A DNA stretch of 37,211 nt from Phycisphaerales bacterium (GTDB lineage Bacteria > Planctomycetota > Phycisphaerae > Tepidisphaerales > Tepidisphaeraceae). The stretch is taken from NCBI GenBank assembly GCA_028288775.1, contig JAQGHP010000788.1:1-37211 (forward strand), read 5' to 3'. Of the stretch, positions 9,557 to 19,320 are shown piece by piece. Each line of letters begins with the position of its first letter. Position 1 is the stretch's first letter. Made by a program: the position numbers and the translations under genes. Under the pieces are notes generated by a model that had not been told where the DNA came from, did no database searches, and saw only the letters and a list, made by a program, of their open reading frames with translations.

Positions 9557-11749
9557 CTACTTTCCCGGCTCCCCCGCGAACGACACCACAATCGCCTCGT
9601 TCATCTTCCAATCGAATTTGAACTCCCGCCCCGCGCCAAGGTCCTTCCCCGTCCGCTCATCGCGGGCGTCTTTCACGTCTTTCGCGAACGTGAGAGTGAC
9701 CGGCAGGACCTCCGTCTTGAGCCCCACGGCGTTGCCGCCGCCGGTGGAGGAGACGGCGATTTCGGGGTTCAAACAGGCGAAGAGGATCCTGCGGGTGCCC
9801 TGTTTCCAGTAGGTGATCTCTACACCGTGCTCGGAGCCGTTTTTGCCGACGATACTTGCCCAGCGTTGCACGCCGGCGGCGTGGAGGGGGTTCAGAAAAA
9901 CGGCGCGCTTCTTCGCCTCCTCGGCTCCGGCGACGCGGTAGGCGTTGTACCATTGTGGCGAGAGGTTCATCAGGACTGCCGTGCCTTTGCCGTAGTGATT
10001 CGTGCTGGAAATGGGCGTGTTGCGGACGGCTTTGTTGAAGCCCGCGGGGTCTTCGATGCAGGTGTTTTCCCGGGTGAGGAATTGCTCGTAGGTTTTCCAG
10101 GAGAAGTTGGCGTCCTGGTTCACTTCGCACCAGAGCTTTCCGCCGAATACGTCTGCCGCTGACATCTTCGGGTCATGCTTGACGCCGAACATTTCATCCA
10201 GGACTCCGCCCGCCGACCGGCCCTTGCCGTGCTGGTCCCACAGGCCCGGCAGATAGTCCGCGATCACTGTGCCGCCCGCCTTGCAGAACTCTTCGATCCG
10301 TCTCGCTTCGACATCTGAAAGGCACAGGCACGCCGGGAGCACCAGCACCTTGTACTCTGCCGGGATGCCCTTCTGGATCACGTCTGCGTAGCTTAGGAAG
10401 TTGTATTGCAGCCCCTCGTCACGGAGCATGTTTTCCCAGGCGTGGCGGACGTGGTGCGAAGCGCCAAGGCGGTCGTCGCCATTGCGGTTTGTCCAGGTCT
10501 TGCCGTGCGCCTCGGCGTCGAAGATCCAGCCGAGCTGGATCGACGGGTGGCTGTAATAGATCGCCACGCCGTCGTGCATCCACTGCGCGCCGCTCATCAG
10601 CGGGCCGATTTTTTTGCCCGCTTCGAGGTACGTGGGCGCGACCTGATCGTGCCAGGGCTTGGGCGTTTTGCCGTCGAACCACCCTTCCACCCAGCCGATC
10701 ATCCCGCGGTTGCCGTGGGCGAGGTAGTACCAGGTCTGCCAGATATCGTCGTCCGCCGAGCGGTGGAAATGGCTGGTGACGGCGGGGATGGCATTCTGCG
10801 GGTTGAACGAGCGGATGATCGCCTGCGAAGAGCCGATGTTATACGCCTCGATGAACTGCACCTTGCGCATGACCTTCGCGTAGTCGTAGCCCCCGAAGGG
10901 GCTTGGGCATTGCCCGCCGACGAATCCGCAGGGCGTGGCCGGGTCGATGCCGTTGGCGTACTCGACGAGGTCGCCGAGAAAGTTGTTCCAGTAGGAATCG
11001 TTGAAAGTCCACTGGTCCATGAGCGGGCTGGCGTCGGATTCGCCGACGGTCCACGTGCGCAGCCGCGGCTGAATGTCGTTGTACGTGATCCAATGGCTGC
11101 GCTCCGGCGCGGCCGCCCCGTAAATCTCCGTGAGCCAGGCGCTGTACGCAGCCTTGTCATCCGTCACGCACCACATCGTCGGATGAACAAAGTGGCCCCA
11201 GGAAATCTCATCATCGAGCGCATACGCCGCCCGGTACGGGGAGGATTTCACCGTTTCGATATGGTGCTTGATGAAGCCGTGCAGTGTTTCGGCCATGGCT
11301 GCGTTAACGGGTTCGCTACGCACGCCCCCGGAATGCAGCTCGTTGACGTGCGGACGCATGTCGTTGCCGTCCCACAAATGCAAATAATGCTTCGCGGCAG
11401 TGTGATCGACATAAAACCGAAGCTGATTCTGATTGATCCAATCCAGCCGCCCGGTCTTCGAGCCCTCTGCCGCGATTCCATCCCAATCCACAAACGCCCC
11501 GTTATACCCGTGCTCAACCGACCACCCCCCTGAGGCCGGCGTGTACCCGATCGTCCACTGATACGTCCACGGCATGTACGTCCAAGACGGGAACGCCGTC
11601 AGCAAAACCGCCGGGTCCTGCCGCACGGGGCGGAAGTCCTTGGAGGTCTGCACGTATTGCTCGTAGGGATCGACCGCGGCATGCGCCCAAGGCACAAAAC
11701 ACAGCCCCGCCGCTGCAAGAACGATCGCCGGGAAATACCTCGCCCGCAT
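9557..11749 (-). CDS. Secreted glycoside-hydrolase-like protein (beta-galactosidase-trimerisation-like region)
   Basis: Signal peptide MRARYFPAIVLAAAGLCFVPWAHAA; acidic motif ALDDEISWG; 'YKVLVLPACLCLSDVEARRIEEFCKAGGTVIADYLPGLWDQHGK', typical of GH42-like trimerisation/amidotransferase-like domains. Confidence 0.65.
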   Translation of the reverse strand: MRARYFPAIVLAAAGLCFVPWAHAAVDPYEQYVQTSKDFRPVRQDPAVLLTAFPSWTYMPWTYQWTIGYTPASGGWSVEHGYNGAFVDWDGIAAEGSKTGRLDWINQNQLRFYVDHTAAKHYLHLWDGNDMRPHVNELHSGGVRSEPVNAAMAETLHGFIKHHIETVKSSPYRAAYALDDEISWGHFVHPTMWCVTDDKAAYSAWLTEIYGAAAPERSHWITYNDIQPRLRTWTVGESDASPLMDQWTFNDSYWNNFLGDLVEYANGIDPATPCGFVGGQCPSPFGGYDYAKVMRKVQFIEAYNIGSSQAIIRSFNPQNAIPAVTSHFHRSADDDIWQTWYYLAHGNRGMIGWVEGWFDGKTPKPWHDQVAPTYLEAGKKIGPLMSGAQWMHDGVAIYYSHPSIQLGWIFDAEAHGKTWTNRNGDDRLGASHHVRHAWENMLRDEGLQYNFLSYADVIQKGIPAEYKVLVLPACLCLSDVEARRIEEFCKAGGTVIADYLPGLWDQHGKGRSAGGVLDEMFGVKHDPKMSAADVFGGKLWCEVNQDANFSWKTYEQFLTRENTCIEDPAGFNKAVRNTPISSTNHYGKGTAVLMNLSPQWYNAYRVAGAEEAKKRAVFLNPLHAAGVQRWASIVGKNGSEHGVEITYWKQGTRRILFACLNPEIAVSSTGGGNAVGLKTEVLPVTLTFAKDVKDARDERTGKDLGAGREFKFDWKMNEAIVVSFAGEPGK

Positions 11750-11827: not shown

Positions 11828-12202
11828 GCGCCGATGGAATTGGCCGCGGTGCGGAAAACCGCGAAGCCGCGAAAGCGCGAAGACTGACGCGAAGAAACAC
11901 CGAAAGTGTCGCCACAGATGAACACAGATAGACACGGATAGAAAACGCTTCCTGTGACATGGGCGTCCCGCCCATGCTCGATGCGCCCGGAGGCTCCGGG
12001 ATATATTGTTTTCGAATGCTTTGCTAATTCCTACGCAGCAGGCACGGGCGGGACGCCCGTGTCACGTTGGGGCTTGCTCCTCGTCTTATCCGTGTTCATC
12101 TGTGTCCCTCCGGGGCGACCATTCTTCCGCATTTCTTCGCGTCTGTCTTCGCGCCCTTCGCGGCTTCGCGGTTTTCCGCACCGCGGTTCGTTTCCACGGC
12201 GC
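11828..12202. repeat. ~375-bp nested palindrome with three layers of repeat arms
   Basis: Outer arms CCGCGGTGCGGAAAACCGCGAAGCCGCGAA (11844-11873) and its reverse complement (12157-12186), extended by GCGCCG.TGGAA; middle arms CACAGATGAACACAGATAGACACGGATA versus TTATCCGTGTTCATCTGTG; inner arms GTGACATGGGCGTCCCGCCCATGC (11954-11977) versus GCACGGGCGGGACGCCCGTGTCAC (12042-12065). Confidence 0.9.
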
Positions 12203-12203
12203 A

Positions 12204-12292
12204 AAGAAGAGTCGCTGCGCTCGGGCCTTCTCCGACCCAAGTACCGGCTGAACGTCACGGGGTACCGTGACCCATTGGGCAAACTGCCCATG
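12204..12292 (-). repeat. Composite multi-hairpin cassette, copy C (degenerate)
   Basis: Minus strand reads CATGGGCAgttTGCCCAATG-GGTCACGGTACCCCGTGAC-GTTCAGCCGGTACTTGGGTCGGAGAA, matching copies at 31129-31200 and 36540-36605. Confidence 0.75.
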
Positions 12293-12422
12293 CCGCGGCT
12301 TGCGCGGGCGGCGCATGTCACGGCTGCCCGCGCAGCGCCCCGAGTCGAAATCGGGCGCGAGTTTATACTCCAACTGCATTCGGCGATGGGCTATGCTCAC
12401 TCGGGGGCCTGATGACGATCGC

Positions 12423-15317
12423 ATGGACTCGATGCAGACCACACACGCCGCCGACGTCGCCGTCGCTTCCTCCAGGCCAAATCCCCTGCTTCCTCACGCG
12501 GTTGTGGCGGCCGAAGTAATCGTTGCGTTGGGCAGTGACCCGCACTCTGGTCTCGTGGCGGCGCAGATCGAATTGCTCCGCGCCCGCCACGGCGCGAACC
12601 GACTGGCCGAAGCGCCGCCGCCTTCGCGATGGGGCCGGTTTCTGCGGCAGTTCAACGAGCTGATCATTTGGATCCTCATCCTCGCCGCCCTCATTTCCGG
12701 GTTCATGAAAGAGTGGACGGACGCGATCGCCATCGTGGCCATCGTGCTGCTCAACGGCGTGCTCGGGTTCCTTCAGGAAGAAAAAGCGGGCAAGGCACTG
12801 GCCGCCCTGCGAAAAATGTCGTCGCCCCAGGCGAAAGTCGTGCGCGACGGCGTCGTACAGATGCTCCCGGCGGAAGACCTACTGCCCGGCGACCGCGTCG
12901 AGCTCGAGGCCGGCGACTTCATTCCCGCGGATGTGCGCCTCGTCAGCGCATCGGGACTGCGCGTGCAGGAGTCGGCGCTGACCGGGGAATCGGCCCCGGT
13001 GGACAAGGACCCCGCCGCGATGCTCGATGGCGATACGCCGCTGGCCGAGCGCATCACCATGGCCTACATGGGCACGCTCGCCACGTCCGGCAAAGCGACG
13101 GCGGTGGTCGTCGCCACGGGCATGCGAACCGAGTTGGGAAAGATCGCCGGGCTGCTGCAACACGAAGACCTCGAGCCCACGCCGCTGCAAAGGCGGCTGG
13201 CGGAACTGGGCAAAGTGATCGTCGCGGCGTGCCTCGTGATCGTCGCGATCATCTTCGTGTTGCAGGTTCTGCGGGGAAGCCCCATTCACGAAGCATTCCT
13301 CCTTGCCGTCAGCCTCGCCGTCGCGGCGGTTCCCGAGGGTCTGCCCGCGGTGGTCACCATCGCCCTGGCCCTGGGCCTGCAGCGCATGGCGAAGCGCAAC
13401 GCCCTCGTCCGCAAGCTGCCGAGCGTGGAAACGCTGGGGTCGGTCACCGTCATCTGCTCCGACAAAACCGGCACGCTCACGCGCAACGAGATGACCGTCC
13501 GCGAGGTGTACGCGGCGGGCGGGCGGTACGAAGTGAGCGGGATTGGGTATTCGCCGGAGGGGAATTTTCGCAAGACCGCAAACGCGAGCGAGGGAGGGAA
13601 CGTCGCCCGTGGCACGGGCGGCCCGCCCGTGTCGGACGCGCTTCCCCCCGATGAACCGCGCGGCACTCCAGCCGATTCCACGGAACACGGGCGGGCCGCC
13701 CATGCCACGGCAGCGCAGCCGATACTCCAAGAGACCGCTCCCTCGCTCGACCCGGACCTGATCCGGGCGCTCACGATCGGCGCGTGGTGCAATTACGCCT
13801 ACCTCGCCCCGCCCGCGCCCGGCGAAGGAAAAAGCTGGCGTCTCACGGGCGATCCCACCGAAGGCGCGCTGATGGTGGCGGCGCTGAAGGCGGCCATTGT
13901 CACCGCCAACCGCGAGCACGAACTCCTCTACGAACTCCCCTTCGATTCCGACCGCAAGCTCATGACCGTCGTCGCCCGCGGGGCAGGCGGGCACGGAATC
14001 GCCTACACCAAGGGCGCGCCGGAAGTCGTGCTGGCCCGCTGCAATTTCGAGCGGCGGGCCGGCGCGATCGTCCCACTCACCCCGGCGCGACGGAGCGAAA
14101 TCCTCGCCGCCGGCTCGGACATGGCCGCCCGCGCGCTGCGGGTGCTGGGGCTGGCCTACCGCGACATGCCAGGGGTCTGGCCGGAAGATTGTTTGGAGTG
14201 CGAGTTGGTATTCAGCGGGCTGGCGGGACTGTTTGATCCGCCGCGAGAGGAGGCGCGCCCGGCGGTGGACAAGTGCCACCGCGCCGGCATCCGCCCGGTC
14301 ATGATCACCGGCGACCACCCCGCCACCGCGCTCGCCGTCGCGCGGGACCTGGGCATCGCCCGCGAAACCGATTCCGCACTCACCGGCAAGCGCTTGGACG
14401 AACTGGACGACGACGCCCTAGCCCATGTCGTCGAGCAGACGCCCGTCTACGCCCGCGTCACGGCCGAGCACAAGCTGCGCGTCGTGCGGGCGTGGCAGGC
14501 CAAAGGCCACGTCGTCGCGATGACCGGCGACGGGGTCAACGACGCGCCCGCGGTAAAGTCCGCCGATATCGGCATTGCCATGGGCCAGGCGGGCACGGAC
14601 GTCACGCGCGAGGCCGCGGACATGGTGCTGACGGACGACAACTTCGCCTCCATCGTCGCGGCCATCGAAGAGGGCCGCGGGATTTTCGACGACATCCAGA
14701 AGTTCGTTCACTACTTGCTGAGCTGCAACACGGGCGAAGTGTTGGTGATGTTCGTGGGCGCGCTGGCCGGGTGGCCCGCGCCGCTGGTGGCGATCCAGAT
14801 CTTGTGGGTGAACCTGGTGACCGATGCGCTACCGGCGTTGGCGCTGGGGATCGAGCGGCCCGAGCCGGATATCATGGAGCGCCGCCCCCGCCCGCCGCGG
14901 GAAGGGGTCATTACACTCCGTCGCGGCCTGCTCATGCTCTTCCACGGCACGCTCATCGCCGGAGCGACCATCGCGGGCTTCGTGATGGTGCGGCGGAGCA
15001 GCCCCAACTCCATTGACGCAGCCCGGACGGTTGCATTTTGTATTTTGTCCTATTCGCAGCTCTTCTATTCCTTCGCCTGCCGCAGCCAGCGGTACACGCT
15101 GCCGAAGCTGGGGATCATGACGAATCCATACCTGCTGGGCGCGATCGTGATCTCGGGGCTGATACAGCTCGCCGTGTTCCTGCCGTTCCTGCGCGGGGTG
15201 TTCCACGTGACGTGGTTGACGTGGGAATGGCCGCTGGTGCTGCTGTTGGCGCTGACACCGGTGACGATCATTGAGGTGCTGAAGATCCTTCGGGCGGGCA
15301 TATTCCCAAAAACGTGA
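12423..15317 (+). CDS. Cation-transporting P-type ATPase (P2A / Ca2+-ATPase-like)
   Basis: [15 protein letters not shown] phosphorylation motif; [43 protein letters not shown]-terminal [26 protein letters not shown]. Contains an in-frame palindromic repeat at 13609-13708. Confidence 0.96.
13609..13708. repeat. REPIN-like inverted palindrome pair inside the P-type ATPase CDS
   Basis: GTGGCACGGGCGGCCCGCCCGTGT (13609-13632) and ACACGGGCGGGCCGCCCATGCCAC (13685-13708) are reverse complements at 23/24 positions, around a 52-bp core; open in frame ([11 protein letters not shown]...[11 protein letters not shown]). Confidence 0.93.
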
Positions 15318-19273: not shown

Positions 19274-19320
19274 CCCACGGCTTGCGCCGTGGGCTAAGTT
19301 CTTACGCCCCTCCGGGGCTG
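19274..19320. repeat. CCCACGGC-ttgc-GCCGTGGG hairpin plus third copy of TTCTTACGCCCCTCCGGGGCTG
   Basis: Hairpin 19274-19293; direct repeat of 19232-19253 at 19299-19320. Confidence 0.9.

Follow-up and report, generated by a model that had tools for sequence, protein, structure and literature searches.

What is the nested palindrome that separates two divergent genes of this Phycisphaerales bacterium, and how did its layers come to stand one inside another? The window, the whole 37,211-nt stretch of DNA that was analysed, comes from a 6.29 Mb MAG (801 contigs, 89% complete). The first-pass annotation had described a nested 375-bp palindrome at 11828-12202, and this was borne out by four nested inverted pairs (11828-11873/12157-12202, 11875-11904/12125-12154, 11908-11940/12087-12119 and 11954-11985/12034-12065) and by the folding of the strand, which reached -145.7 kcal/mol compared with -74.6 +/- 4.4 in dinucleotide shuffles (z = -16.2). 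The palindrome, referred to below as the composite, is real and lies far beyond chance. As had been claimed, its outer pair has a perfect core of 30 nt (CCGCGGTGCGGAAAACCGCGAAGCCGCGAA) and the flanking genes are divergent. The minus-strand gene (9557-11749) codes for a protein that has a Glyco_hydro_42M domain and a signal-like N-terminus; the plus-strand gene codes for a P-type cation ATPase (12423-15317, with an ATG at 12423 and an open frame from 12267). The annotation was wrong in giving the right arm about 11 extra nucleotides. The two middle arms do not differ in length and can be aligned over 33 nt with no gap (GTCGCCACAGATGAACACAGATAGACACGGATA / GTCGCCCCGGAGGGACACAGATGAACACGGATA), and the right one carries substitutions instead, clustered in its first unit.

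From outside to inside, the composite consists of an outer layer O (CGCGAAG), a middle layer M (CACAGATG) and a centre C (GGGCGTCCCGCCC). The left O arm (11842-11897, plus strand) has CCGCGGTGCGGAAAACCG followed by CGCGAAG units, and its inverted counterpart lies at 12132-12187 on the minus strand; beyond the O arms there is a weaker outermost complementarity. The M arms, left at 11908-11940 (plus) and right, inverted, at 12087-12119 (minus), are built of 10-nt units (CACAGATGAA). In the centre stand two REP-like palindromes, GTGACATGGGCGTCCCGCCCATG at 11954-11976 (plus) and CACGGGCGGGACGCCCGTGTCAC at 12043-12065 (minus), around a loop (11977-12042) that is conserved across copies of the composite. 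No strand is assigned to the loop or to the composite as a whole. The window also holds an Acido-Lenti-1 RNA (RF01687) at 19274-19319, which scored 54 bits, above the gathering score.

The composite is a member of a dispersed multicopy family in its own genome. A search of that genome with the element, as a 349-base query, gave 112 matches. Twelve places, including the window, cover 300 or more of the 349 bases, and partial copies occur at more than 30 further places. The other near-full-length copies are 73-80% identical to the window copy and agree with it in layer order, linkers and loop. The M motif had 135 occurrences in the search, against none for a control motif. When the loci of this genome were tokenised, 18 had M inside O and none had O inside M; inside M stood C at 25 loci and a different palindrome, G, at 12. 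The depth of a fourth palindrome, T (GTAGGGTGGGTGTACTCGCCCACC; GTAGGGTGGG...), varies from copy to copy, and some copies of the composite have lost the centre. An assembly artefact was rejected for the family as a whole because many copies have distinct flanks and because M palindromes are also present in a single-contig genome (G013). Several MAG contigs end at or near such repeats (G000:C530, G001:C604, G001:C363 and others), and the repeats may therefore contribute to assembly breaks.

Other palindromic repeats were observed close by. One dispersed repeat (GTCGCTGCGCTC...GTACCGTGAC), at 12212-12297 in the window, adjoins many of the composites in this genome. The P-type ATPase gene contains, in frame at 13609-13710, a palindrome of 102 nt that belongs to the related G type (GTGGCACGGGCGGCCCGCCCGTG...CATGCCACGG), and a congener (G001) has a similar palindrome within its own ATPase gene (L129). 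Palindromic elements are known within Rickettsia genes, and the one at 13609-13710 resembles those.

The two outer layers of the composite match the arms of a particular gene, GxxExxY. In the congener G001, one O...O' pair (L141) encloses a GxxExxY gene (TIGR04256, E = 4e-37) whose product scored 127 bits against a family cut-off of 35. One PF13366 gene was detected in the window's genome (120 bits, cut-off 22); this GxxExxY gene lies between pyrB and pyrC with O arms on its flanks. The O arms of the composite are identical to the arm on its left at 49/53 and 49/52 positions (92-94%), with an alignment score of 86 compared with 32 for the best shuffle. A count of the outer 23 bases of that left arm, allowing two mismatches at most, gave 62 in the window's genome, 17 in G001 and none in another 59 genomes of the class. 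The M layer corresponds to the arms that flank GxxExxY genes of other genera (G008, G024, G042, G004 and G006; L212, L179, L181, L184 and L177). No M-type GxxExxY gene was detected in the window's genome, which is 89% complete, though M arms are abundant there. The match of the O and M layers to these arms points to a partnership, not described so far, of a nuclease with dispersed repeats.

Inverted arms are a regular feature of this gene in the class. For 62 GxxExxY loci with usable flanks, mismatched flank pairs served as the null, and the inverted flanking arms lay above its 95th percentile in 55. The locus's own right flank was the best of the 62 partners in 47 loci and among the top three in 58. 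Matches in direct orientation were rare (7), and windows displaced 600 nt outward matched in 2 of 55. RAYT loci, the positive control of the flank method, were bracketed by inverted repeats of a different kind. The GxxExxY arms repeat a 9-10-nt unit three or four times in tandem. They mostly lie no more than tens of bases from the gene, and the unit types include CGCGAAG, CACGAAG, CGCCAAG, CGCAAAG, CACAGAG, CGCAGAG and CACAGATGAA, among others. A scan of named genomes with a four-sequence GxxExxY alignment gave at least 571 relatives, of which 80 were kept. Within these 80, matched arms were seen in Chloroflexota, Cyanobacteriota, Bacteroidota, Planctomycetota, Acidobacteriota, deltaproteobacterial groups and others, and arms exceeded the null in 47 of 77 loci, the null being itself raised because arms from different genomes resemble one another. 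Matched inverted arms were present on plasmids of Bacteroides finegoldii (radA-GxxExxY-FAD protein gene) and Sphingomonas parapaucimobilis (fabD-GxxExxY-fabG), and the plasmid survey also found paired arms near the gene in Gemmatirosa. At the level of sequence, both the association of gene with arms and its inverted geometry are established.

GxxExxY (TIGR04256/PF13366) is a stand-alone protein of about 130 residues. Its conserved D81, E91xK93 and Q105xxxY109 are PD-(D/E)XK residues, and they include a QxxxY motif of RecB type; in 60 sequences D, K and Q are invariant, and E and Y are kept in at least 90%. The AlphaFold model (pLDDT 95) found its best fold match in the Cas4 protein SSO0001 (Z 9.6). 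Behind it came many PD-(D/E)XK enzymes, among them archaeal Holliday-junction resolvases, whose Z scores of 6-7 tied with those of many others. By its residues and its model, GxxExxY is a predicted PD-(D/E)XK nuclease of Cas4/RecB-like type. It shares the fold and the D, ExK and QxxxY residues with nucleases of that type but differs from them in standing alone between inverted arms; the loci read showed neither a CRISPR nor a helicase partner. A sequence search did not find a solved structure, and to our knowledge no enzyme activity has been described. In the literature searched, that outside subscription, GxxExxY was named in passing mentions only, and nothing relevant was found for the arm sequences. 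On this scope, the novelty of the pairing is provisional.

The composite is probably a miniature mobile element of composite build, with O and M as inverted arms of GxxExxY type and C as a REP-like pair, whose arms are mobilised in trans by GxxExxY. The mobilisation is our inference. The inverted arms would be the substrate of the nuclease, which would cut or nick the hairpins or cruciforms that they form. Gene-less hairpins could then copy or move in trans, as REPINs do via RAYT. New elements would tend to land centrally in an existing hairpin, which would add layers, and the finished composite would spread as a unit. We give an even chance to the wider proposal that GxxExxY and its matched arms form a widespread, undescribed dispersed-repeat system, in which the nuclease propagates gene-less hairpins in trans, the intergenic DNA of phyla in large number has been seeded, and hairpins landing in hairpins produce nested composites.

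The evidence for mobilisation by GxxExxY includes the co-variation of arm type, gene and gene-less dispersed copies. Arms were classed by units ending in AAG, GAG or GAT, with nine labels assigned by eye, and placed on a protein tree built from the GxxExxY core only, because the arms themselves encode N-terminal residues. In GxxExxY genes with M-type arms (L179, L212, L184), the arm encodes the N-terminus (MNTDEH...). Arm type required 9 changes on the tree compared with 25.9 when shuffled, and GAT arms alone required 2 compared with 12. Dispersed arms were commoner in genomes with a GxxExxY gene after the genes' own arms had been subtracted (p = 0.0002), and 13 of the 14 nearly complete genomes without the gene were also without dispersed arms. 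The odd arm variant of the only GxxExxY gene in G006 has 68 copies in that genome, 4 in G014 and none elsewhere. In G015 and G013 the dispersed subtype is that of one of the genome's own GxxExxY genes. There are exceptions: in G039 the arms of the gene differ from the common CACGAAG repeats of the genome, and G021, G025 and G040 have arms with no GxxExxY gene detected. The gap between pyrB and pyrC holds a full GxxExxY cassette in G000, G001, G013, G020 and G022, with arm types that differ between genera. In G006 it holds a palindrome without the gene, whose arms are those of the GxxExxY of that genome, and in G002, G014, G015 and G021 the site is empty and the gap measures 15-20 bp. Inheritance of arms and gene together could alone explain the co-variation.

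It is also conceivable, but unlikely, that GxxExxY, as a selfish gene of homing type, inserts itself at the centres of pre-existing palindromes, which spread by other means. The gene does occupy a hairpin centre like any other centre, and other palindromes land in such centres too. However, arm type tracks the protein tree, nearly all GxxExxY genes have arms even in genomes with few dispersed arms, and genomes that lack the gene have few gene-less arms. The closeness of the fold to Cas4, the low copy number of the gene and its one orthologous locus in several genera would suit a protein that controls or silences the repeats, or a defence nuclease that uses hairpins as sites, with no mobilisation involved. 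Such a role appears decidedly improbable, since it leaves unexplained both the higher counts of dispersed arms in gene-bearing genomes and the genome-specific arm variants.

The system closest in behaviour to GxxExxY and its arms is RAYT/REP, in which a low-copy gene has inverted flanking repeats that co-evolve with it (PMC2817692, PMC3116915, PMC8049555). GxxExxY likewise is a low-copy gene between two inverted copies of a dispersed repeat (55/62 loci), and the same repeats are dispersed as gene-less hairpins. They co-vary with the protein, as seen in the tree changes and the genome-specific variants, and the orthologous gene position has changed repeats. The systems differ in that RAYT is an HUH transposase (IS200/IS605-like Y1), whereas GxxExxY matches TIGR04256 and PF13366, with a PD-(D/E)XK fold, and not Y1_Tnp. 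They also differ in that GxxExxY arms are tandem 9-10-nt units and the RAYTs of the same genomes carry other repeats. The Y1_Tnp genes at L082 (G000:C306) and other RAYT loci are bracketed by the REPs AGCCCCGGAGGGGCG and GCCCACGGCGCAAGCCGTGGG. These are quite unlike the O and M arms, so that two separate repeat systems exist in one genome.

That the layers are ordinary RAYT-mobilised REPs or REPINs is very improbable. RAYT (Y1_Tnp) genes are present, with 4 matches in the window's genome, T is GTAG-tagged, and C and G resemble tagged REPs (PMC3733652), but the RAYT genes here are not bracketed by O or M arms. RAYT was rejected as the mobiliser of O and M, since RAYTs carry other REPs. The C and T layers, which begin GTGA/GTGG and GTAG, respectively, do resemble tagged REPs and could be RAYT-dependent; RAYT mobilisation is plausible for these two and not for O and M. 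No RAYT flanked by T or C was found in the RAYT loci examined, and no link of C and T to GxxExxY was found. The composite can also be likened to a MITE, as a gene-less inverted-repeat element whose ends, the O arms, are those of a gene-bearing element in the same genome. It departs from this model in that the GxxExxY product is no known transposase and in that elements of this type are almost wholly palindromic and multilayered.

The nesting of repeats within palindromes has precedents. Nested small dispersed repeats of Nostoc were reportedly described by Elhai in 2008. REP dimers are inserted in longer palindromes in A. variabilis, T. roseum and H. neapolitanus (PMC3733652). The present family differs from these cases in having three or four layers in a fixed order, two of them matching the arms of a nuclease gene.

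The first-pass annotation had offered two origins for the layers, sequential insertion and a replication template switch, and had suggested a search of relatives for intermediates. Relatives do have single layers, each forming a simple hairpin. In G001, the orthologue of the L014 site has the same O shell with T and another palindrome in the centre, not M and C. In the same congener the L011 site is empty and the L010 site holds an unrelated palindrome. At the composite's own locus the G001 contig stops within the ATPase gene, short of the site. G016 has kept the glycosidase-like gene beside a different neighbour, and no palindrome was found next to that gene in the stretch read. The empty-site junctions (L011 in G001; pyrB-pyrC) are too diverged for a target-site duplication to be read. 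Sequential nesting is supported by the lone layers in relatives, the hierarchical order, the varying depth of T and the L014 shell round another centre; on this comparison the nesting of layers is real, and composites recur as units. It is hardly credible that one replication template switch made the composite on site, and this origin was rejected: the arms are indeed inverted and nested, but about 12 near-full-length copies have common linkers and loop, the modules and their order recur, and a single switch is unsupported because arms within a copy are no more alike than arms of different copies (permutation p = 0.32, with no signal of within-copy homogenisation among the copies' arms).

Short repeats such as CACAGATGAACACAGATG, CACGAAG, CACAGAG and CGCCAAG are common between the genes of many environmental bacteria, and the literature searched, that outside subscription, gave no explanation for them. 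A tie to one uncharacterised nuclease family would explain these repeats. It would also supply the first functional hypothesis for GxxExxY, with its at least 571 relatives, and would add to RAYT/REPIN an independent counterpart with an unrelated nuclease.
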